Assembly: GCA_012514225.1 (NCBI GenBank)
Contig: JAAZAQ010000176.1
Location: forward strand, 1-11,318
Length of the DNA stretch: 11,318 nucleotides
Direction: 5' to 3'
Source: Clostridiales bacterium
Lineage (GTDB): Bacteria; Bacillota; Clostridia; Christensenellales; Aristaeellaceae
Shown: piece after piece, positions 1,608-10,908 of the stretch
How the letters are laid out: each line of letters begins with the position of its first letter
Numbering within the stretch: position 1 is the first letter of the stretch
Program-made: the position numbers and the translations under genes
The notes under the pieces: model-generated
What the model was told of the DNA's origin: nothing
The model's input: the letters and a program-made list of their open reading frames with translations, nothing else
Database searches by the model: none

Positions 1608-2792
1608 GTGCTGGTACTGAGTTGCAACGTGGGCAGCACCTCGCTGAAATACCGCCTCTACCGGCTGGCGGGGGCGGAGGAGGAGCTGGCTTCCGGACAT
1701 TTCGAGGGCATCGGCCGCGCGGCCGGCAAGGCGCGCCAGCAGGCGGGGGACCGCGGGGCGCGGGAGGACGCGCCGCGGCCGACCTACGCGGAGGCCATCG
1801 GCGCAATGCTGGACTTCCTGACGGACGCAGGGGCGCTGCCGGGCGGCAGGCCGGACTGCGTCGCCTTCAAGGTGGTGGCCGCGCTTCGCGTCAGCGGCGT
1901 GCAGGAGCTCACCGAGGAGGTGCTGGGCGCGATGGAGGCCTTCAACACCCTGCTGCCGGCGCACAACCCGCCCTATATCGCGGCCGTGCGGCAGTTTCGC
2001 CAGACGATGCCGGGCGTGCCGCTCGTCGGCAGCTTCGAGACCGGCTTCTTCCAGCGGATGCCGCCGGAGGCCTTCCTGTATGCGCTGCCCACGGAGCTGC
2101 TGGAACAGGGCGTGCGCAAAAACGGCGCGCACGGCGCCTCGCACGAGTACGTGAGCGGCTGGGTCGCGGACGCGGAGGGCCGGGACGACCTGCGCCTGGT
2201 CACCTGCCACCTGGGCGGCTCCTCCTCCATCGCGGCCGTTCAGGCCGGGCGCTGCGTGGACACCACCCTGGGCCTGTCGCTGCAGTCCGGGCTGCCGCAC
2301 AACAACCGCGTCGGGGACGCGGACCCCTACCTGTCCATCTACCTGCAGGAAAGCCTGGGCTACACCCGGGAGCAGGTCAAGGAGCTGTACAGCAAAAAGG
2401 GAGGCCTGCTGGGGCTGTCCGGGTTCTCCGGGGAGCTGTGGGAAATCGAGCAGGCCGCGGACCGGGGCGACGCCCGCGCACGGACGGCGCTGGACGTCTA
2501 TTGCTACAGCATCAGGAAATACGTCGGCTCCTTCGCCGCCGCCCTGGGCGGGCTGGACGCCGTGGCCTTCGCCGGGGGCATCGGGCAAAACAGCGCCAGG
2601 GTGCGCGCGCAGTCCCTCGCCGGCCTGGAGTTCCTCGGCGTCCGCCTGGACGCGGACAAAAACGCGAAAGCCAAGCCCGGCGACAAGGTGTCCGCGGAGG
2701 GCTCCCGGGTGTCCGTCTGGGTGGTCGCGACCAACGAGGAAATCGTCATCGCGCGCAAGGCGCGGCAATACCTGGAGGGGAAAGGCGCCTGA
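1608..2792 (+). CDS. Acetate kinase-family protein with altered active-site residues
   Basis: This encodes 394 residues, close to the usual AckA length of about 400. The GTG start at 1608 follows GGGAGGG (1594-1600) by seven bases; the frame stays open far upstream, but that part overlaps the UroD gene and has no homology-like character. ASKHA-fold motifs are clear: the phosphate-1 loop NVGSTSLKY, LLPAHNPP, HGASHEYVS, CHLGGSSSI, an NNRVGDADP arginine, FAGGIGQNSA and TNEE. Compared from memory with Methanosarcina thermophila AckA, HRVVHGG reads FKVVAAL (R91 to Lys), FDTAF reads FETGF (D148 to Glu), CHLGNG reads CHLGGS (N211 to Gly) and GIGEN reads GIGQN, while the His180, Arg241 and Glu384 equivalents are kept. 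It may be a paralogue with another acyl substrate or a non-kinase role. AckA normally converts acetyl phosphate and ADP to acetate and ATP; no pta gene lies nearby. Family certain, activity uncertain. Confidence 0.87.
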   Translation: MLVLSCNVGSTSLKYRLYRLAGAEEELASGHFEGIGRAAGKARQQAGDRGAREDAPRPTYAEAIGAMLDFLTDAGALPGGRPDCVAFKVVAALRVSGVQELTEEVLGAMEAFNTLLPAHNPPYIAAVRQFRQTMPGVPLVGSFETGFFQRMPPEAFLYALPTELLEQGVRKNGAHGASHEYVSGWVADAEGRDDLRLVTCHLGGSSSIAAVQAGRCVDTTLGLSLQSGLPHNNRVGDADPYLSIYLQESLGYTREQVKELYSKKGGLLGLSGFSGELWEIEQAADRGDARARTALDVYCYSIRKYVGSFAAALGGLDAVAFAGGIGQNSARVRAQSLAGLEFLGVRLDADKNAKAKPGDKVSAEGSRVSVWVVATNEEIVIARKARQYLEGKGA

Positions 2793-2810
2793 GCCGTCAT
2801 AAACGGCGTG

Positions 2811-2854
2811 AAAGCCCCCGGACGGCCTGGGCCGCCCGGGGGCTTGTTTTGTTT
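2811..2854 (+). terminator. Rho-independent terminator after the kinase gene
   Basis: AAGCCCCCGG (2812-2821) pairs with CCGGGGGCTT (2836-2845) in a 10-bp stem, with more pairing (GGCC/GGCC) inside, followed by a T-rich run at 2844-2853. It sits 19 bp after the kinase stop codon. It also lies beyond the 3' end of the opposing gene, but lacks a good T run in that direction, so it mainly serves the plus strand. Confidence 0.88.
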
Positions 2855-2862
2855 CGTCCGGC

Positions 2863-3624
2863 TTATTCCACTGTGAAGGTCGTTTTCCCGCCCAGCCAGC
2901 CGTTGAAATACAGCTCCACCGCGTAGCGGCCCGGCGCGAAGGCGTCGTTGTAGCTCAGGTAGGTCTGGAAGATGTGGTTGATGTTGTAGGCGGAGCGCAC
3001 GCCGGTCCAGTCCCCGGGGACGGAGGTGGTTTCGGAGTAGAGGTAGCGGTCGGCGGAATTGGGGGGATACAGCACGACGACCGCCTGGAGGTTCTTGTCC
3101 GTCTTGGCGCGCGACAGGGTGTACTCCACGGCAATGAAGAAGTTGCGCAGTTCCCCGGCGCTGGCCAGCATGGCGCCCTGCACCCGCTCCACCCGGGTCC
3201 GGGAGGCGTCGTCCCAGAAATCGGTGTTGGAGTCGGCGTTGGTGTAAAACAGGGAGAAGTTCCGGTACTTGTAGTTGTATTCCCGCTGGCTGTTCAGGCG
3301 GGGCGTCGTGGCGTAGGCGAGGTCGGACTGCGCGCCTTCTTCCCCCTGGCTGACGGAAATCTTGTAATTGGTTTCCGGCGCGACCTGGAGCAGGGCGGAG
3401 TTCTCGTAAACCTCGTCATAGTAGGTGAACACGCCCTTCACCGGCCCGTAGTGGACGCGGAAGGGGGGCGAGCCGCCCTGCCAGGAGACCTTGATCTGGG
3501 TGGCGGAGAAGGGGGTCGCCTTCAGGCCGGTGATGCCGCTGTCCTCCGCGGCGAAGGCGGAAAGGGGGAGGGCGGCAAACAGCAGCAGGGCGGACAGTAC
3601 GGCGGCCAGCGTGCGTTTCATCAT
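2863..3624 (-). CDS. Secreted protein with fibronectin type III-like domain, function unknown
   Basis: This encodes 253 residues. The N-terminus is a classic Sec signal peptide: MMKR, a hydrophobic core rich in Ala and Leu, and an AFA|AE cleavage site after residue 25. Residues about 30-108 resemble a fibronectin type III beta-sandwich (GITGLKATPFSATQIKVSW, then APETNYKISVS). The remaining 145 residues are rich in Tyr, Asn and Ser, contain no cysteine, and end in PGRYAVELYFNGWLGGKTTF, which looks like another beta-rich domain. There is no lipobox, LPxTG or transmembrane anchor, so it is probably released or loosely wall-bound. AAGGAG stands ahead of two adjacent ATG codons (3624 and 3621); either could start. 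I do not recognise the C-terminal family. Confidence 0.8.
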   Translation of the reverse strand: MMKRTLAAVLSALLLFAALPLSAFAAEDSGITGLKATPFSATQIKVSWQGGSPPFRVHYGPVKGVFTYYDEVYENSALLQVAPETNYKISVSQGEEGAQSDLAYATTPRLNSQREYNYKYRNFSLFYTNADSNTDFWDDASRTRVERVQGAMLASAGELRNFFIAVEYTLSRAKTDKNLQAVVVLYPPNSADRYLYSETTSVPGDWTGVRSAYNINHIFQTYLSYNDAFAPGRYAVELYFNGWLGGKTTFTVE

Positions 3625-3675
3625 TACATCTCCTTATGGTCGGCGTTTTCCCGCGGCGGAACCGGATGTCCGGGG

Positions 3676-3681
3676 ATTATA
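3676..3681 (-). promoter_or_regulatory. -10 box for the secreted protein gene
   Basis: A perfect TATAAT on the minus strand lies about 52 bp ahead of the start codon, in the 81-bp gap after the LysE-family gene. I see no convincing -35 box at 16-18 bp, so an activator or a weak promoter is possible. Confidence 0.45.
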
Positions 3682-3705
3682 CCCGGCCCGCCCCGGAATA
3701 CGCCC

Positions 3706-4287
3706 CTAGCCCAGCAGCATCGCGACCGCGCAGTAGACCAGCAGCGCCGCCATCGCGGCGTTGACCGCGAGGGCGTGCCGGGAAAACAGGAGGCGGAAGG
3801 TGGAGCCGAAGGCGGACCACAGAAGGGTGCAAAGGAAACCGGCCGTGGACAGCATCAGGGCGAAGGCCGCGAGCTGCAGCGGCTGCCCCTGGTACGCCGG
3901 CAGGATGAAGGCTTCGAGGGAAACCATGCAGTATACGTAGGCCTTGGCGTTGACGAACTGCAGCGCCACGCCGCGGAGGAAGGACGCGTCGCTCCCCTGT
4001 TCCTCCGGCGCGTCCGCCGCGTACAGGGAATGGCGGGCCAGCACCAGCAGGTAGGCGGCGCCCACGGCCGTCAGGGGCAGCTTGAGGAAGGGCAGCAGGC
4101 GGGAGAGGGCGCTCAAAAAGAAGGCGCTGGCCAGGGAAATGGCGGAAAAACCCGCCATCACGCCCAGGTTGAAGGGCAAGGCGCGGACAAAGCCCTTCCG
4201 GCGCCCGTTCTCCATGGACAGGATGTTGTTGGGCCCCGGGGTCACGGCTGTGGTGAACATGTAGATCAGAAAGGGCGCCCACTGCAT
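3706..4287 (-). CDS. LysE/RhtB-family amino-acid exporter
   Basis: This encodes 193 residues, the normal length for LysE-type exporters. The family signature TPGPNN is at residues 16-21, followed by ILSMENGRRKGF, and about six hydrophobic segments span the protein (for example the stretches beginning FLIYMF, LGVMAGFSAI, LPLTAVGAAYLLVL, LQLAAFALML and VNAAMAALLVY). Members export amino acids or related metabolites across the cytoplasmic membrane using the proton gradient; the substrate cannot be deduced. The ATG at 4287 is chosen because GGGAGG lies nine bases upstream and the protein begins directly with its first membrane helix; the open frame extends further upstream but that segment is low-complexity basic sequence. 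It lies downstream of the radical SAM gene on the same strand, but a hairpin separates them. Confidence 0.9.
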   Translation of the reverse strand: MQWAPFLIYMFTTAVTPGPNNILSMENGRRKGFVRALPFNLGVMAGFSAISLASAFFLSALSRLLPFLKLPLTAVGAAYLLVLARHSLYAADAPEEQGSDASFLRGVALQFVNAKAYVYCMVSLEAFILPAYQGQPLQLAAFALMLSTAGFLCTLLWSAFGSTFRLLFSRHALAVNAAMAALLVYCAVAMLLG

Positions 4288-4327
4288 GCTAGCCCGCCTC
4301 CCGCTTCCTTGTGCCTTTGACTGCACC

Positions 4328-4372
4328 AAAATACCCCCGCCGCCGCGCCTGCGGAAGTGGGGGGCTTGTTTC
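4328..4372 (-). terminator. Probable terminator after the radical SAM gene
   Basis: On the minus strand a run of six C (4364-4359) faces a run of five G (4338-4334), with CCGC/GCGG pairing inside, followed by TATTTT. The stem is imperfect. A T-rich run also lies on the other side (4366-4381), so a bidirectional role is possible, although no rightward gene ends here. Confidence 0.5.
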
Positions 4373-4409
4373 TTTTCTGTTTGCGTTCCGGGGCCTTGCG
4401 GCGGCCGGC

Positions 4410-5828
4410 TCAGGCGACGGGCGCCTTGTCCGTCTCCGCCCGGGCCTCCTTTTTGAAGAAGCGGCGGCCGCGGTTCTTCCCGCGCGGCTCCTCCTTCCAC
4501 AGGCGCTCGGCCGTCACGGCCCACTTTTCGGAAGCCTGTTCGCACTTGGCGCACAGCGCCGCCACGTCCTCCGGGTCCTTCGCCTCGGTGGAGCGCGCGC
4601 CGGCCTGGCTCACCATCTCCCGCAGCTGGCGAGGGTTATCCAGCAGCGGGCAGGGCTGGAGCATGTTGTCGTTGAAGGGCTGCCGGTGGTGGTACTGCAT
4701 GAACAGCGGTCGCCGGAGCGCTTCCAGCAGGGTGTGCTCCCGGATGTTGCTGTCGGCGTAGTGGATGAAGGCGCAGGGCTCCACGTCGCCTGCTGCGTTG
4801 ATATGCAGGTAGGAGCGCCCGCCCGCGATGCAGCCGCCGGCGTACTCCCCGTCATTCCAGAAGTCCATGGTGAAAATCGGCTTGGTGTTTCGCCAGGCGC
4901 GCACGGCGCGGTACATGTGCTCCCGCTGCTCCGGGCTCACCATCAGTTCCGGCGCGGCGTCCCGGCCCACGGGCATGTAGGTGAAGAACCAGGCGAACTT
5001 GGCGCCCAGGCCAATCATATGGTCGATGTAGTCGTCGCTGCCGATAACCTCGGTGTTCCGGCTCGTGTAGCACAGGGAAATGCCGAAGGGCAGCCGCTTT
5101 TCCTTCAGCAGCTCCATCGCCCGGATGACCCGGCGGTAGGTACCCCTGCCGCGCCGCGCGTCCGTGGCCTCCTCGAAGCCCTCGATGCTGATGGCCGGCA
5201 CGAAGTTCTTGACCCGCAGCATCTCCCCGGCGAAGGCGTCGTCGATCAGCGTGCCGTTGGTGAAGGCCAGGAAGGCGCAATCCGGGTGCTTTTCGCACAG
5301 CCGGACGATGTCTGCCTTGCGCATCAGGGGCTCGCCGCCTGAAAAGATGTACAGGTAGGTGCCCAGCTTCTTGCCCTGGCGGATGATGCCATCCAGCTCC
5401 TGAAGCGACAGGCTGAGCTTGCCGCCGTATTCGCTGGCCCAGCAGCCCTGGCAATCCAGGTTGCAGGCGCTGGTCGGGTCCATCAGGATGGCCCAGGGCA
5501 CGTTGCAGCCGTGTTTGAGGGCCGTCTTCCGCTGGCGCGGGGTGCCGATCATGCTGGCGTTGATGACAAAGTTCTCAAACAGCCGTTTGCGTACCCCGTC
5601 GTCGACGTCCGTGTACAGGCTCTTGAGCAGCTTGTACCAGTTGCCCTGCGGGTTTAGGACCGCGTTCCTGGCGGTCTGCGCCTGGGAGCCGACGGCCAGC
5701 TGCTCCGGGTCGCGCCGGATGAGCCAGTCTGCGATTCTGACGGCGTTGCGGTCAAAATCGCGGTCCACATACGACAGCACGCGCTTGAGCCCTGCGGATT
5801 TGAGGTGTTCAACAAGGGTTTTTGCCAT
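4410..5828 (-). CDS. Radical SAM enzyme with SPASM-like C-terminal cysteines
   Basis: This encodes 472 residues. The CX3CX2C motif (C122, C126, C129) binds the SAM-cleaving [4Fe-4S] cluster, and FSGGEP (162-167) is the SAM-contacting motif. An N-terminal region of about 110 residues precedes the barrel. The C-terminal part has C333 and C352 (GGC...AAGDVEPC), C393 (QPCP) and CAKC (C426, C429), consistent with one or more auxiliary clusters of the SPASM/twitch type. The last 30 residues are basic and probably disordered. AAGGAGGAG lies seven bases before the ATG. The gene diverges from the reductase/ligase-synthase operon across 147 bp, which suggests a shared pathway. SPASM enzymes often modify peptides or small molecules, and no precursor-peptide gene is seen nearby. 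Alternatives are an HpnH-like or lipid-modifying enzyme. Class certain, substrate unknown. Confidence 0.88.
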   Translation of the reverse strand: MAKTLVEHLKSAGLKRVLSYVDRDFDRNAVRIADWLIRRDPEQLAVGSQAQTARNAVLNPQGNWYKLLKSLYTDVDDGVRKRLFENFVINASMIGTPRQRKTALKHGCNVPWAILMDPTSACNLDCQGCWASEYGGKLSLSLQELDGIIRQGKKLGTYLYIFSGGEPLMRKADIVRLCEKHPDCAFLAFTNGTLIDDAFAGEMLRVKNFVPAISIEGFEEATDARRGRGTYRRVIRAMELLKEKRLPFGISLCYTSRNTEVIGSDDYIDHMIGLGAKFAWFFTYMPVGRDAAPELMVSPEQREHMYRAVRAWRNTKPIFTMDFWNDGEYAGGCIAGGRSYLHINAAGDVEPCAFIHYADSNIREHTLLEALRRPLFMQYHHRQPFNDNMLQPCPLLDNPRQLREMVSQAGARSTEAKDPEDVAALCAKCEQASEKWAVTAERLWKEEPRGKNRGRRFFKKEARAETDKAPVA

Positions 5829-5861
5829 GGCGCCGCTCCTCCTTATTCAGTTCATAAACCC

Positions 5862-5890
5862 ATACTAAACCGCCCGGCGCAAAAGGGCAA
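5862..5890 (-). promoter_or_regulatory. Possible promoter for the radical SAM gene
   Basis: On the minus strand TTGCCC (5890-5885) and TAGTAT (5867-5862) are each four of six consensus matches, with a 17-bp spacer. The A+T-rich leader then runs into AAGGAGGAG before the ATG at 5828. Confidence 0.4.
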
Positions 5891-5918
5891 GCCTGCGGGG
5901 AGGCGGCCGGCCCCTTGC

Positions 5919-5947
5919 TTGTGCAATTGGACAGAATGGGATAAACT
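5919..5947 (+). promoter_or_regulatory. Possible promoter for the reductase/ligase-synthase operon
   Basis: TTGTGC (5919-5924, three of six) and TAAACT (5942-5947, four of six) have a 17-bp spacer, 28 bp before the ATG at 5976. The match is weak, but this is the only A+T-richer patch ahead of the operon. Confidence 0.3.
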
Positions 5948-5975
5948 GTGCGGGACTTCTGAGCCGGAGGGGAGC

Positions 5976-6785
5976 ATGGCAAACAGGGTGGCCTGGGTCA
6001 GCGGAGCGTCCAGCGGATTGGGCGCGGCGGCGGCCCGGGCGCTTGTGGAAAACGGCTGGAAGGTGGTCGCCGGCGCGCGCTCCTTCTCCGGGCAGGAAGG
6101 CGAGACGGACCTGGGCGCCCGGCTGCCGCTGGACGTGCGGAACGAAGCCTCGGTGAAAAGCTTTGCCGGGCGTGCGGAGGCCCTGTACGGCTTGCCGGAC
6201 GCCCTGGTCAACGCCGCGGGCATCCTGACCCTGGGCCCAGCCGAGGACACCACGCCCGAGGAAGTGCTGCAGGTCATGGACACCATCCTGCTGGGCACCC
6301 TGCGGGTGACCCGCGCCGCCCTGCCACTGATGCGGGAAAAGGGCGGGGGAAAGGTGGTCATGCTGTCCTCCGTCAACGGCCTGATGCCCACGCCCTTCCA
6401 GGGCGCCTACGTGGCGGCCAAGCACGCGCTGGAGGGGATTTCGGAGTGCCTGGCGCTGGAGACGAAAGGCCAGGGCATCCAGGTGATGCTGGTGGAGCCG
6501 GGCGACCACCGGGGCGGCAGCGACCGGTACCGCGGCCATGCCGGGCGGGTTTCCCCGCTGTACGCCGAGCGCTTCCGCCGCGCGGCGGACGTCATCCGGG
6601 AGGACGAGGCGCGGGGCCGGGAGCCCGCGCGCTTCGGCCAAAGGCTGGCCTGCGTGCTGGGCAGGAAAAGGCTGCCCCTGCGGCTGAAGGTGACCACGCT
6701 GAAGGAAGATTTCGCCATCGTCATGCACGACGTGCTGCCCGGGCGCCTGTTCCTGCGCTTCCTGGCAGACTATTACAAGGTGTGA
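5976..6785 (+). CDS. Short-chain dehydrogenase/reductase (SDR), putative ketone reductase
   Basis: This encodes 269 residues, typical for a classical SDR. The nucleotide-binding SGASSGLG is at 9-16, NAAG at 79-82, and the catalytic Ser132, Tyr145 and Lys149 (YVAAK) have normal spacing. The Asn of the usual catalytic tetrad (N-x-x-G) is replaced by Ile104 (ILLG). After the active site the PG motif reads VEPGDHRGG instead of the common PGxxxT. The C-terminal end (FLRFLADYYKV) is hydrophobic and aromatic, which may help it meet a lipid. GGAGGGGAG (5966-5974) precedes the ATG; the frame is open further upstream but without a better start. The next gene begins 29 bp after its stop, so the two are an operon. 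By context it probably reduces the amino ketone made by the neighbour, as 3-ketodihydrosphingosine reductase does. That role is inferred. Confidence 0.9.
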   Translation: MANRVAWVSGASSGLGAAAARALVENGWKVVAGARSFSGQEGETDLGARLPLDVRNEASVKSFAGRAEALYGLPDALVNAAGILTLGPAEDTTPEEVLQVMDTILLGTLRVTRAALPLMREKGGGKVVMLSSVNGLMPTPFQGAYVAAKHALEGISECLALETKGQGIQVMLVEPGDHRGGSDRYRGHAGRVSPLYAERFRRAADVIREDEARGREPARFGQRLACVLGRKRLPLRLKVTTLKEDFAIVMHDVLPGRLFLRFLADYYKV

Positions 6786-6814
6786 CCGCGCCCCGCGGCA
6801 GGGAGGAGCCCCTG

Positions 6815-9800
6815 ATGGAATTGAAAACCGACATCAGCGCGCGCTGCGAGGCGCTGCGCCAGGACATGACCCTGCGCAGGATTTTTGAGCTGACCTGCGA
6901 AAACGGGGAGCGCGTCGCGGCACATTGGCTGGAAGGCGACCAGGAGCGCAGCGCCACCTTCGGCGAACTGGCGCAAAAGGCGGCCGACTACGCGCAGTTC
7001 CTGAAAAAAGCCCTGAAGGACAAGCCCGCCGGGCAGTTCTTCGCCATCCAGGTGGACACCTGCCGGGAGTGGTTCTCCATGTTCTGGGGGCTGCTGCAGG
7101 CGGGGTACAACCCCCTGCTGCTCAACGCCGCCCTGTCCGACGAGATGACCGCGTACATGCTCAGGGAAGCCGGCGCGGCCGGCGTCATCTGCCGGGAGCG
7201 GCGCAAACTGCCGGAAGAATACGTGCAAATCCAGGCGGAGCAGCTGTTTTCCGCCCCGGAAGCGAAGAACTTCTCGCCCAATTGGGCGGACCGGATTGCG
7301 CTGTGCACCTCCGGCAGCACGGCGACCAGCCGCATCTTCGTGTACGACGAGGCCGCCGTATGCGAGCAGGTGCTCAACTCCGACCTGCTGCACAAGGCCA
7401 ACCCGCGCATCGTCAACGACACCATGCAGCGCAACCTGGCTTTCCTGCCCTTCCACCATATCTTCGGCTTCATGGTCTGCGTGATGTGGTGCAACTTCGT
7501 GGGCTACGAGTCCGTCTTCCTCAAGGACCGGGCGCCCGACACCATCCTGGGCACCATGCGCAGGTTCAGGGTCAACTTCCTCTGCGCGGTGCCGGTGCTG
7601 GCCAACAGCCTCTCCGCCGGGCTCAACAAGAAGGTCGCCCTGCAAAAGCCCCTGAAGCGCGCCGCCTTCAAGGTGATGAAGGGCGTCAGCCTGGGGCTGC
7701 AGAACGTGGTCCCGCGCTTCGGCATGGACTTCGCGCGCACGGTGCTGTTCAAGTCCGTCAACGCGCAGCTGCTGGGCCCGGACGTCAACTGCGTCATCCT
7801 GGGCGGCAGCCATACGCCAAGGGAGCACATGCGCAACATCGCAGCCCTGGGCTACTACACGATTTCCGGCTTCGGCATGACGGAGACCGCCGTCACCTCC
7901 TGCGAAACAAGCATGAACCTGCACACCCGCACCTCCGGCTCCGTCGGGCGCCCGCTGGCCTCGGTGGAATACAAGGTCGAGTCCGACGGCAAGCGCTCCA
8001 ACACCGGGGAGATGCTCATCAGGGGCAGCAGCGTGCACACCGGGCAGCTGAAGGACGGCGTCCTCATCCCCCCGGACCTGGACGAGTTCGGCTGGTACCG
8101 CACCGGGGACATCGTCCGGCTGGAAAAGGGCATGCGGATGTACGTGGAAGGCCGCAGCAAGGACGTCATCATCAACGAGTCGGGCGAGAACGTCTACCCC
8201 GACGAAATCGAGGACTATTTCGGCAACCTCGAGGGCGTGGAGCAATACTGCGTGCTGGGCCTCCGGAACACCGGCGCCAGCCGCGTCAACCGCCTGAAGC
8301 GGCGGCGGCACATCCGGCCCGACTACGAGGACATCACCCTGGTCCTGAACGTCGGCGAGCGCTACCGCGACGACGCCTTCCTGACCCAGCTCATGCGCCA
8401 GGTCGCCCAGAGCAACCGCCGGCTGCCGGTGTTGAAGCAGATCACCCGCGTGCTGGCCACCCGCGAGCCCTTCGAGCTGGCCAACGGCATCAAGGTCAAG
8501 CGCATGGCGTTGAAAAAGGCGCTGGAAGAGACCCGGATCGCCTACCGCGACCTGGACCTCAAGTCCGGCGCCCTGCCCCTGACCGACACCACCCCCATCG
8601 AGGTGGAGGAGGCGGTGCCGGCGGCCGCCGGCAGCCAGGATGAAATCAAGGAGCGCGTGCGGCGCGTGTACGCCGAGGCGCTGGACATGGCGCCGGAAAA
8701 CATCCCGGACACCGCCCATTTCATCAACGACCTGGGCGGCGACTCCCTGCAGGTGCTGGGCGTGTCGCTGAAGGTGGAGGAGCTCTTCGACGTGCTCATC
8801 CCCACCGAGGAGTACGGCCAGTGCACCACCGTCAACGACCTGACCCAGGTCATCCTGACCCGGCTGTCGGGCGGGGAGCAGAAGCAGGCGGAGCCGCGGG
8901 GCGCGGTCACGCCGGTCACGCGCTTCGAGGACTCCGAGGAGTTCCAGGCCTTCGCCCTGCGCGAGGCCGCCCTCCTGGGCTCGGGGATGGAAAACCCCTA
9001 CTTTGTCCCGCACGACAGCGTGCTGAGGGACGTGAGCCTGATGGAGGGGCACGAGGTGCTCAACTTCGGCTCCTACAACTACGTCGCGATGTCCGGGCGG
9101 CCGGAAGTCGCCGCCGCGGCCAAGGCCGCCATCGACCGCTACGGCACCTCCGCCTCCGGCTCCCGCCTGCTGGCGGGTGAAAAAACCCTTTACCAGGAGC
9201 TGGAGAGGGAAATCGCCGAGTGGAAGAACGCCGAGGCCGCGCTGGTGCTGGTCTCCGGCCACGCGACCAACGTGACCCTGGTGGGCAATTTCTGCGGCAA
9301 GGACGACCTGATCCTCTACGACGCCCTGGCGCACAACTCCGTCGATCAGGGCACCCGGCTGAGCCAGGCGGTCAGCAAGCCCTTCCCGCACAACGACCAC
9401 GTGGCGCTGGAGAGCATCCTCAAAACCCAGCGCGACAAGTTCAAGAAGTGCCTCATCGTCATCGAGGGCGCCTACAGCATGGACGGCGACATCTCCAACG
9501 TCCCCGCCTTCGTGGAGCTCAAGAAGAAATACGGCTGCTTCCTGCTGGTGGACGAGGCGCACTCCGCCTGCGTCATCGGGAGGACCGGCGGCGGCGTGGA
9601 CGAGTATTTCGGCCTCGCCCACGACGATATCGACATCAAGATGGGCACGCTGTCCAAGGGCCTGGGCACCTGCGGGGGGTACCTGGCCGGGAAGCGCAGC
9701 CTCATCGAGTACCTGCGCTACAACCTGCCGGGTTTCGTCTTCTCCGTGGGCATCTCCCCGCCCCTGGCCGCGGGCACGCTGGAGGCGGTTCGGCTGCTGC

Positions 9801-10129
9801 GCCGCGACCCCTCCATCATCCAGTCCCTGGAAAACAACATCAACACCTTCGTCCGAGAGGCGCACAAGCGCCGCCTGAACACCTGCCTGGCCGGGCACAC
9901 CGCCATCATCCCCATCCTGGTGGGTTCGGACGAGAACGCCTTCCTGTTGTCCAACATGCTGCGCCACAAGGGCGTGTTCGTGCCGCCCGCCGTGTTCCCC
10001 GCCGTGCCCAAGGGCAAGGCCCGCCTGCGCTTCTGCGTCATCAGCGAGCACAAGGAAGCGCAGATTGTGAAAGCCCTGGACACCCTGATGGAGACCGCGC
10101 AGGAGGCCGGCATCCAGCTGCCGGCGTAA
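6815..10129 (+). CDS. Trifunctional acyl-AMP ligase - acyl carrier - alpha-oxoamine synthase fusion
   Basis: This encodes 1104 residues with three domains. Residues about 1-570 form an ANL-superfamily acyl-adenylating domain: the phosphate loop LCTSGSTATS (about 162-171), SGFGMTETAV (351-360), YRTGD (about 427), YVEGRSKDVI (about 442), and the terminal NGIKVKR with the adenylation lysine (about 560). Residues about 609-685 are an acyl carrier domain, with DLGGDSLQ giving Ser644 for the phosphopantetheine arm. Residues about 703-1104 are a PLP-dependent alpha-oxoamine synthase: GSRLLAG, SGHATN, stacking His840 (LAHNS), DEAHS (913-917) and Lys948 in GTLSKGLG for the internal aldimine. Expected chemistry is acyl-AMP formation, loading of the carrier, then decarboxylative condensation with an amino acid to an alpha-amino ketone. 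The ATG at 6815 follows GGGAGGAG by six bases. It is in an operon with the upstream SDR. The phosphate loop lacks the usual Pro-Lys-Gly. The acid and amino acid used are unknown; a sphingoid-like product is inferred. Confidence 0.93.
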   Translation: MELKTDISARCEALRQDMTLRRIFELTCENGERVAAHWLEGDQERSATFGELAQKAADYAQFLKKALKDKPAGQFFAIQVDTCREWFSMFWGLLQAGYNPLLLNAALSDEMTAYMLREAGAAGVICRERRKLPEEYVQIQAEQLFSAPEAKNFSPNWADRIALCTSGSTATSRIFVYDEAAVCEQVLNSDLLHKANPRIVNDTMQRNLAFLPFHHIFGFMVCVMWCNFVGYESVFLKDRAPDTILGTMRRFRVNFLCAVPVLANSLSAGLNKKVALQKPLKRAAFKVMKGVSLGLQNVVPRFGMDFARTVLFKSVNAQLLGPDVNCVILGGSHTPREHMRNIAALGYYTISGFGMTETAVTSCETSMNLHTRTSGSVGRPLASVEYKVESDGKRSNTGEMLIRGSSVHTGQLKDGVLIPPDLDEFGWYRTGDIVRLEKGMRMYVEGRSKDVIINESGENVYPDEIEDYFGNLEGVEQYCVLGLRNTGASRVNRLKRRRHIRPDYEDITLVLNVGERYRDDAFLTQLMRQVAQSNRRLPVLKQITRVLATREPFELANGIKVKRMALKKALEETRIAYRDLDLKSGALPLTDTTPIEVEEAVPAAAGSQDEIKERVRRVYAEALDMAPENIPDTAHFINDLGGDSLQVLGVSLKVEELFDVLIPTEEYGQCTTVNDLTQVILTRLSGGEQKQAEPRGAVTPVTRFEDSEEFQAFALREAALLGSGMENPYFVPHDSVLRDVSLMEGHEVLNFGSYNYVAMSGRPEVAAAAKAAIDRYGTSASGSRLLAGEKTLYQELEREIAEWKNAEAALVLVSGHATNVTLVGNFCGKDDLILYDALAHNSVDQGTRLSQAVSKPFPHNDHVALESILKTQRDKFKKCLIVIEGAYSMDGDISNVPAFVELKKKYGCFLLVDEAHSACVIGRTGGGVDEYFGLAHDDIDIKMGTLSKGLGTCGGYLAGKRSLIEYLRYNLPGFVFSVGISPPLAAGTLEAVRLLRRDPSIIQSLENNINTFVREAHKRRLNTCLAGHTAIIPILVGSDENAFLLSNMLRHKGVFVPPAVFPAVPKGKARLRFCVISEHKEAQIVKALDTLMETAQEAGIQLPA

Positions 10130-10148
10130 ACAGGGAACTCGTTTCCCG

Positions 10149-10168
10149 GATTGACGGACCCGTCAATC
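10149..10168. repeat. Inverted repeat between the fusion gene and the C39-like gene
   Basis: GATTGACGG (10149-10157) and CCGTCAATC (10160-10168) are perfect inverted copies separated by two bases. No T run follows, so it is a poor terminator. Its position about 46 bp ahead of the -10 box at 10205 suits a binding site for a dimeric regulator. A small GGGAA/TTCCC stem (10133-10147) lies just before it. Confidence 0.5.
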
Positions 10169-10204
10169 AGATACGCGCATTCTTCGCTCCCCTTTTCCAG
10201 GGGG

Positions 10205-10210
10205 TATAAT
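10205..10210 (+). promoter_or_regulatory. -10 box for the C39-like gene
   Basis: A perfect TATAAT lies 80 bp before the ATG at 10291, but the -35 region (about 10182-10188) matches consensus poorly. A start near 10217 would leave a leader of roughly 74 bases that contains the hairpin at 10261-10278. The inverted repeat upstream could recruit an activator that makes up for the weak -35. Confidence 0.5.
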
Positions 10211-10260
10211 CCGCATACCGGCGTTCTGTCCGACCGGCTGGAGCGCCCATTACCGAAGGC

Positions 10261-10290: not shown

Positions 10291-10908
10291 ATGACCACCA
10301 CCATCGCCTTCCCCGAGTACCTGCAGCTGCCCTTCAAGGGCGGCGCCCCGCACTACGGGTGCGACCAGGACTGGTTCCGCGGCTTCTGGCAACGCAAGGC
10401 AGGCTGCGGGCCCTGCACCGGCGCCAACATCCTTTATTACCTCGCCCGCGGCGGGCGCCTGCGCCTGCCCGTGGCGGTCGACAGCCAGGACGGCTTCCTC
10501 TCCCTGATGGAGCACAGCTGGGCCTACCTGACGCCCACGATGATGGGCCTCAACTCGCCCGCCCTGATGCAAAAGGGGCTGGACGCCCTGCTCTCCCTGC
10601 AGGGCAGCGGGATGAAAAGCCAGGCGCTGGAGGTGCCCGCGGAGCCGGAGCGCCGCCCCTCCGCGGGGACCGCCGAGGCCTTCATCCGCTCCGGCCTCGC
10701 GGCGGACTCGCCCGTCGCCTTCCTCAACCTCTCCAACGGCGAGGTTCCGCAATTGGAAAACTGGCATTGGGTCACCGTCGTCGGTCTTTCCGGCGCCGGG
10801 GAGGACGCCCTGATGGAAATCTACGACAACGGCCGGCGCCTGTCCGTGCCCCTGGGGCTGTGGCTGAGGACCACCAAACGCGGCGGCGGGTTTGTGTATG
10901 TGGCGTGA
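10291..10908 (+). CDS. Papain-like (C39-type) cysteine protein, function unknown
   Basis: This encodes 205 residues with no signal peptide or membrane segment, so probably cytoplasmic. AGCGPC (C39, C42) followed by a helix (TGANILYYLA) resembles the nucleophile motif of peptidase family C39 and other papain-fold enzymes; ENWHWVTVVG supplies His159, and IYDNG supplies Asp179, giving a plausible Cys-His-Asp triad with Gln34 as a possible oxyanion residue. The fold is used by peptidases, transglutaminase-like enzymes and phytochelatin-synthase-type acyl transferases. Because it follows an acyl-carrier/amino-ketone synthase operon, N-acylation or amide hydrolysis of the product is conceivable, but this rests on position alone. 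It appears to have its own promoter and no clear ribosome site. Start chosen as the only ATG ahead of the Cys motif; moderately sure. Confidence 0.8.
   Translation: MTTTIAFPEYLQLPFKGGAPHYGCDQDWFRGFWQRKAGCGPCTGANILYYLARGGRLRLPVAVDSQDGFLSLMEHSWAYLTPTMMGLNSPALMQKGLDALLSLQGSGMKSQALEVPAEPERRPSAGTAEAFIRSGLAADSPVAFLNLSNGEVPQLENWHWVTVVGLSGAGEDALMEIYDNGRRLSVPLGLWLRTTKRGGGFVYVA

Follow-up and report, generated by a model that had tools for sequence, protein, structure and literature searches.

Among bacteria, sphingolipids have been described mostly in Bacteroidetes and Proteobacteria, with smaller Gram-positive groups also suggested (PMC11087976). In Rhodobacteria such as Caulobacter, AasR, AcpR and serine palmitoyltransferase (SPT) are described as separate proteins acting in series, without acyl-CoA (PMC9386255), and in Pseudomonas fluorescens MYb115 the pair SgaA/SgaB combines a polyketide synthase (PKS) with an alpha-oxoamine synthase (AOS), joined by the reductase SgaC (PMC12134224). 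Single polypeptides with the A-CP-AOS layout were tabulated in 2013 for Microscilla (A1ZVW4) and Blastopirellula (A3ZWL3) (PMC3870968, Table 2). They are catalogued there among NRPS/PKS proteins, next to PigH, in which a carrier domain is fused to an AOS, and Firmicutes appear in the list of phyla in which embedded PLP domains, of four kinds taken together, occur (PMC3870968). Additional sources are PMC11211663, PMC11324152, PMC11334938 and PMC10191378.

The window analyzed here, 11,318 nucleotides, is an entire contig (C109) of an assembly of 1.93 Mb (401 contigs, 89% complete). It encodes a fusion of acyl-AMP ligase, carrier protein (ACP) and AOS domains, preceded by a short-chain dehydrogenase/reductase (SDR) gene (Table 1). 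The original prediction had placed the SDR 29 bp ahead of a ligase/carrier (Ser644)/synthase (Lys948) fusion, and coordinates, motifs and Pfam domains all agree with it. The three fusion domains exceed the Pfam cut-offs and PF00106 is found in the SDR, and GGDS and GTLSKGLG mark Ser644 and Lys948, respectively. Four further stretches of the ligase, TSGST (165-169), GFGMTET (352-358), YRTGD (428-432) and NGIKVKR (557-563), are presumably adenylation motifs, and their core residues are unchanged throughout 45 aligned homologues, chosen by hand. Ser644 is likewise invariant (45/45), as are Lys948, His840, Asp913, His916 and Arg1072, so that the PF00155 fold, PLP lysine and His/Asp/His/Arg set characteristic of the AOS superfamily are all present. 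The fusion is neither a chance product nor a frameshift artefact and, with three domains and intact motifs, looks like a working enzyme for activation, tethering and condensation. Its domain order (PF00501-PF00550-PF00155) is the one that defines the A-CP-AOS layout in PMC3870968. The structure predicted for the whole fusion (pLDDT 77.7) has a pTM of 0.51, and domain packing was therefore left out of the argument; its fold matches (SPT, Thermus synthase, KBL, BioF and ALAS) again point to the superfamily. In the gap between the two genes, GGGAGGAG was taken, on visual inspection, for a ribosome site, and nothing in a promoter and terminator scan exceeded shuffled sequence. The SDR is flanked by a divergent radical SAM/SPASM gene, a relative of which was found by gene clustering in one other compared locus only (L045). 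The gene downstream of the fusion encodes a 205-aa protein that contains a CGPC motif and matches no Pfam family; relatives of it also lie downstream of the fusion in five other loci compared.

Table 1. Coordinates of the genes, domains and related loci discussed in the text
Feature	Position	Strand	Remarks
Window: radical SAM/SPASM gene	4410-5828		Next to SDR
Window: SDR, KdsR-like ketone reductase, 269 aa	5976..6785	+	ATG at 5976, stop ends 6785; PF00106 match
Window: acyl-AMP ligase / carrier protein / alpha-oxoamine synthase fusion, 1104 aa	6815..10129	+	ATG at 6815, stop ends 10129
Acyl-AMP ligase region, residues 1-590	6815..8584	+	Pfam AMP-binding PF00501 at 30-409
Carrier protein domain, residues 613-679 (PF00550)	8651..8851	+	Ser644 phosphopantetheine site at 8744-8746
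Alpha-oxoamine synthase domain, residues 702-1104 (PF00155 at 747-1090)	8918..10126	+	PLP lysine Lys948 at 9656-9658; His840, Asp913, His916, Arg1072
Window: 205-aa protein	10291-10908		Downstream of fusion
L009: full fusion	3773-7060		MAG labelled Bacteroidales
L083: PKS followed by AOS	2072-10050		Genome G744
L094: SPT-like gene	1900-3093
L097: SPT-like gene	2474-3697
L108: ACP-AOS after CDP-alcohol phosphatidyltransferase-type gene	7959-10207		Pfam run on this locus only
L109: ACP-AOS after CDP-alcohol phosphatidyltransferase-type gene	7991-10222
L012: ligase-ACP relative	8502-13457		PlsC-type acyltransferase and MFS transporter genes
L072: ligase-ACP relative	8130-12675		As L012, by gene clustering only

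The fusion consists of the same parts as the AasR/AcpR/SPT system, namely an acyl-ACP synthetase, a dedicated ACP and an SPT-type synthase, but on a single chain instead of three. AasR, AcpR and SPT of Escherichia coli BL21 align along it in this order, with identities of 39% over 70 aa, 31% over 54 aa and 32% over 351 aa, whereas the BL21 reductase is of the epimerase type and gives no match to the SDR of the window. Because of the fusion, the ligase is predicted likely to load only its own ACP. SxtA, in which a carrier domain is fused to an AOS, differs from the fusion, as does PigH, by the absence of a ligase domain and by its product. In the SgaAB system, compared here by its description alone, the chain is built by an iterative PKS (PMC12134224), whereas the fusion would activate a free acid. 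A similar difference holds for a plasmid-encoded PKS-ACP-AOS protein of Planktothrix agardhii (WP_042158693; L085), in which a synthase domain 46.8% identical to that of the fusion also follows a carrier domain but a 2532-aa polyketide synthase takes the place of the ligase. A genome of the same class as the window (G744) encodes a 2180-aa PKS and, after 83 bp, an AOS 41% identical to that of the fusion, a pair resembling SgaAB. An origin of the ligase domain from AasR was rejected, because AasR matches the fusion (70 aa) and the ligase's relatives weakly and over short stretches.

The three-domain layout itself is not new, since Microscilla and Blastopirellula proteins have the same domain order; these are not clostridial, are listed without function and are likened to the fusion by layout alone (PMC3870968, Table 2). 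Activation without free acyl-CoA fits the parts of the fusion, but, as described in PMC9386255, Rhodobacteria already achieve it with separate proteins. Among the literature matches listed, with preprints and most subscription journals outside the scope, no paper on the fusion in Clostridia was found, and the clostridial, Omp85-lacking setting and the linkage to the SDR look new.

The fusion is a conserved family. We found 659 homologues, and the best 120 of 659, including the protein of the window, share all three Pfam domains and are 59-100% identical. The search for the three-domain architecture and its neighbourhoods that the original prediction had proposed recovered full-length fusions in 27 of the 396 sampled genomes of the order, with variable neighbours: 20 in the family of the window, three in family f21 and four in family f31, two of the latter at 37% identity. 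Two further genomes (G048 and G006) carry fusion fragments ending at contig edges, and two members of the window's family (G079 and G311) carry the synthase domain alone, without ligase or carrier. Beyond the order, 391 sampled genomes of the class and 398 sampled genomes of the phylum, for which E was limited to 1e-90 and 1e-80, yielded one- or two-domain matches and no full-length fusion. With the synthase domain as query, 7854 proteins were matched, the best 120 of 7854 at 63-88% identity; these 120 include ACP-AOS proteins of ~500 aa and AOS-only proteins of ~414 aa, some marked partial. The assemblies of relatives are labelled Clostridiales, Eubacteriales, Bacillota, Christensenella and Avichristensenella, with one ligase-ACP match in an Oscillospiraceae assembly, which supports the Firmicute-like, clostridial host originally proposed. 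One relative, a full fusion, comes from a MAG labelled Bacteroidales; its codon usage is like that of its neighbours and it is preceded by TATATTTGC, which we take to be Bacteroidetes-promoter-like; either transfer or misbinning may account for it. A phage origin was rejected, because 80% coverage of the fusion was reached by none of the 43 matching records of a phage collection; for plasmids, the query was the synthase domain alone.

To place the synthase domain, we compared it with curated models and reference enzymes. None of the curated cut-offs for SPT, KBL, BioF or KdsR was reached by the fusion or the SDR. Against the three NCBIfam SPT equivalogs the fusion scored 294.5, 254.4 and 215.7 bits (cut-offs of 640, 500 and 670), whereas the SPTs of BL21 and Roseomonas each pass one of these cut-offs. 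The top model was BioF (TIGR00858), at 335.9 bits for the whole fusion and 339.5 for the domain alone, below its cut-off of 426.45; the SPT-CFB model gave the domain 298.4 bits. By sequence, the closest solved relative is SPT of S. multivorum (220 bits), but the Thermus enzyme (216) and KBL (209) are close behind; CqsA structures score far lower (82). In an unrooted, midpoint-drawn tree of 30 rows, which like its predecessor excluded human SPT, CqsA and SgaB, the fusion, the PKS-linked synthases and the SPTs were split from KBL, BioF, ALAS and the Thermus enzyme with support of 95/95. The fusion rows, the PKS-fused domain of Planktothrix and the PKS-following domain of G744 formed one group (100/99), which in this unrooted tree lies adjacent to the SPT clade rather than within it. 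A preceding tree, also of 30 rows and including four long branches, agrees, with a weaker placement of BioF. An unassigned synthase from genome G1060 also falls on the SPT/fusion side and scores 408 bits with the SPT-CFB model and 401 with BioF, both below cut-off. Assignment of the domain to KBL, BioF or ALAS was rejected on these grounds, the cut-offs being unreached and the tree placing it apart. Individual residues point in both directions: Tyr754-Asn755-Tyr756 is as in SPT of S. paucimobilis (the other three reference SPTs have Asn-Asn-Tyr or Asn-Ser-Tyr), and Ser783 and Ser947 are SPT-like and also present in some other enzymes, whereas Arg1070 is shared by 28/28 fusion rows with the KBL, BioF, ALAS and Thermus references but replaced by Leu in 4/4 reference SPTs.

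The SDR carries a GASSGLG nucleotide motif, Ser131/132, Tyr145 and Lys149, and thus the Ser-Tyr-Lys triad and GxxxGxG by which KdsR is recognized in PMC9278070; its structure model (pLDDT 89.8) matches SDRs in the PDB. Reduction of a ketosphinganine-like ketone, as originally proposed, agrees with the best of 208 NCBIfam models being 3-ketodihydrosphingosine reductase (169.5 bits), but this is barely above a generic SDR model (168.4) and under the 400-bit cut-off of the KdsR model NF049977, which is passed in none of 58 profiled genomes nor in the control genomes. These 58 comprise all 34 sampled members of the window's family and 24 hand-picked others of the order. Close orthologues of the SDR, defined by at least 200 bits with the window's SDR as query (the next best score being 113 bits), are present in all 20 fusion genomes of the family and both AOS-alone genomes, but in only one of the 12 others (G003). 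More generally, a KdsR-like SDR (full-length match to the KdsR model of at least 165 bits) occurs in 38 of the 39 profiled genomes that carry a fusion, AOS-alone or SPT gene and in 4 of the 19 that carry none, the co-occurrence with an SPT-type synthase that is also expected of KdsR. Fisher tests, which ignore relatedness, gave p = 4e-8 and 2e-9 for the two associations; by genus, the family divides into seven with fusion or AOS, two with SPT and five with neither. The co-occurrence of the SDR orthologue with the fusion or its synthase in the window's family is the strongest evidence in the case. The compact two-gene route originally proposed thus stands as regards co-inheritance (22/22 versus 1/12) but not as a fixed operon: among the 20 fusion genomes of the family, the SDR orthologue adjoins the fusion in 10, lies at a distance of 6.3 kb in one and is located elsewhere in nine, and it is absent from 7/7 fusion genomes of f21 and f31, which contain other KdsR-like SDRs. 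Across the full-fusion loci compared, the SDR stands immediately upstream in 15 of 34 (17 of 36 before removal of two duplicates); L061 and L067 are near-copies from two genomes, and L058 has only ~0.25 kb of upstream sequence. A biosynthetic gene cluster around the fusion was rejected, because neighbours vary and none of 29 scanned neighbouring proteins of relatives points to one, those with Pfam assignments being ordinary (RecG, GidA, amylase, homoserine succinyltransferase, AraC regulator, HAD hydrolase, etc.).

Stand-alone SPT-like genes provide a second line of comparison. The SPT model NF047600 matched 95 of 396 genomes of the order at 496-565 bits, below its cut-off of 640, and at the same limit one of 14 control genomes, a Bacteroides, was positive. 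The three SPT-like rows placed in the tree fall inside the SPT clade (100/97); unlike the fusion, they are stand-alone proteins of ~400 aa, 33-38% identical to its synthase domain, and the gene adjoins a KdsR-like SDR in three of 13 profiled carriers (G201, G010 and G139). The 34 genomes of the window's family comprise 20 with the fusion, two with AOS alone, four with the SPT-like gene, eight with none and none with both, and each of the four SPT-like genomes has another KdsR-like SDR. All three fusion genomes of f21, by contrast, also carry the SPT-like gene, and the fusion is thus not a replacement of SPT everywhere.

Collectively, these results make an SPT-like sphingoid-base synthase on a single chain the probable identity of the fusion. 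The argument combines its domains and motifs, the 95/95 split, the order of the BL21 matches, the SDR co-occurrence, the complementarity with SPT in the family, ACP-AOS relatives that follow a CDP-alcohol phosphatidyltransferase-type gene (see below) and the precedents of AasR/AcpR/SPT (PMC9386255) and SgaAB (PMC12134224). We counted against it the unreached cut-offs, BioF as top model, Arg1070, the presence of both genes in f21, a CerS-like gene in only 9/26 genomes (see below), the two family genomes with a KdsR-like SDR and neither synthase (G003 and G274) and the neglect of relatedness in the associations. Given the SDR co-occurrence, the SPT-like gene and KdsR-like SDR of fusion-less family members and the AasR/AcpR/SPT analogue, the fusion probably does the job of SPT with an ACP-bound chain. 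The ligase domain would adenylate a free fatty acid, and the acyl group, to judge from the motifs, would be loaded onto the phosphopantetheine arm at Ser644. At the PLP domain an amino acid, L-serine being the likeliest (L-alanine or glycine otherwise), would be bound as an aldimine and, as the clade and residues of the domain suggest, condensed with the ACP-bound acyl group. This step would lose CO2 and free a 3-keto-sphinganine-like amino ketone, which the SDR would reduce to the amino alcohol. Condensation of this kind is likely, the two proteins are best read as making a sphingoid product, and together they should yield the backbone of a sphingolipid-like fat. Within the family, gene content shows the fusion and SDR in place of the SPT and KdsR-like set of sister genera, a replacement that may extend to function.

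The same mechanism might instead use alanine, glycine, cysteate or another non-serine amino acid, giving 1-deoxysphingoid, aminoketone or capnine-like lipids. We consider this unlikely, but it is the most serious alternative: S. multivorum SPT has other residues in place of Tyr754 and Arg1070, it also takes Ala, Gly and homoserine (PMC10196870), and a cysteate acyltransferase is found among the fold matches of the fusion, at rank 39. However, Ser783, present in 28/28 fusion rows, corresponds to Ser81, which makes a water-mediated contact to the serine carboxylate (PMC10196870), although BioF has Ser too, and the fusion clade is nearest to SPT. Even less probable is a CqsA- or PigH-like signalling or secondary-metabolite amino ketone made from a short or unusual acid, with the SDR as a tailoring enzyme; the nearest synthase domains outside the family belong to PKS systems (Planktothrix and G744) and A-CP-AOS proteins are catalogued with NRPS/PKS (PMC3870968), but the lack of a cluster among the 29 scanned proteins, the co-inherited KdsR-like SDR, the complementarity to SPT and the low score of CqsA structures argue against it. 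A KBL- or BioF-like role in primary metabolism, with the N-terminal domains merely supplying the acyl group, is hardly credible. BioF is the top NCBIfam model, but its cut-off is unreached, BL21 SPT also falls below it at 333 bits, so that the model does not separate SPT from BioF, and the fusion lies apart from KBL, BioF and ALAS in the tree; moreover, the window's genome contains a further synthase-model match (C125, 329.5 bits), close to a KBL reference (331.9).

The SPT-like reading of the fusion can be extended to the organisms. Omp85 was not found in 36/36 genomes of the order searched but was found in G802 and G1096, and the order of this anaerobic bacterium looks single-membraned, as judged from this one marker in incomplete assemblies. 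It is an evenly balanced proposition that Omp85-lacking Christensenellales-type Clostridia make sphingoid lipids and that one family swapped SPT for a one-polypeptide acyl-ACP-synthetase/ACP/SPT-like machine that converts free fatty acids directly to sphingoid bases and is accompanied by a co-travelling SDR. If true, this would mean a further bacterial origin of sphingoid lipids, next to the SPT-like genes that roughly one in four sampled genomes of the order carries, and a compact one-protein enzyme leading from free acids to amino ketones. In the genome of the window, a YghO/CerS relative of that of E. coli BL21 (25% identity over 276 residues, E 2e-19; the ORF overruns the contig end) might act as an N-acyltransferase and give a ceramide-like amide. 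CerS-like genes (E 1e-8, a limit at which distant ones may be missed) occur in 12/13 SPT genomes, 9/26 with fusion or AOS alone and no SPT, and 1/19 with neither; a ceramide synthase as fixed partner of the fusion was rejected on the count of 9/26. The ACP-AOS genes of G802 and G1096, which belong to one genus of the phylum, follow a gene of 189 or 195 aa by 74 and 84 bp; in G1096, the one genome of the two on which Pfam was run, this gene is a CDP-alcohol phosphatidyltransferase. Finally, ligase-ACP relatives at two loci lie by PlsC-type acyltransferase and MFS transporter genes (at L072 by gene clustering only). The setting at L012, where the synthase is absent, is a hint that the ligase type of the fusion handles long-chain acids, and the gene sets at both loci resemble a split version of the Aas/LplT lysolipid repair set.
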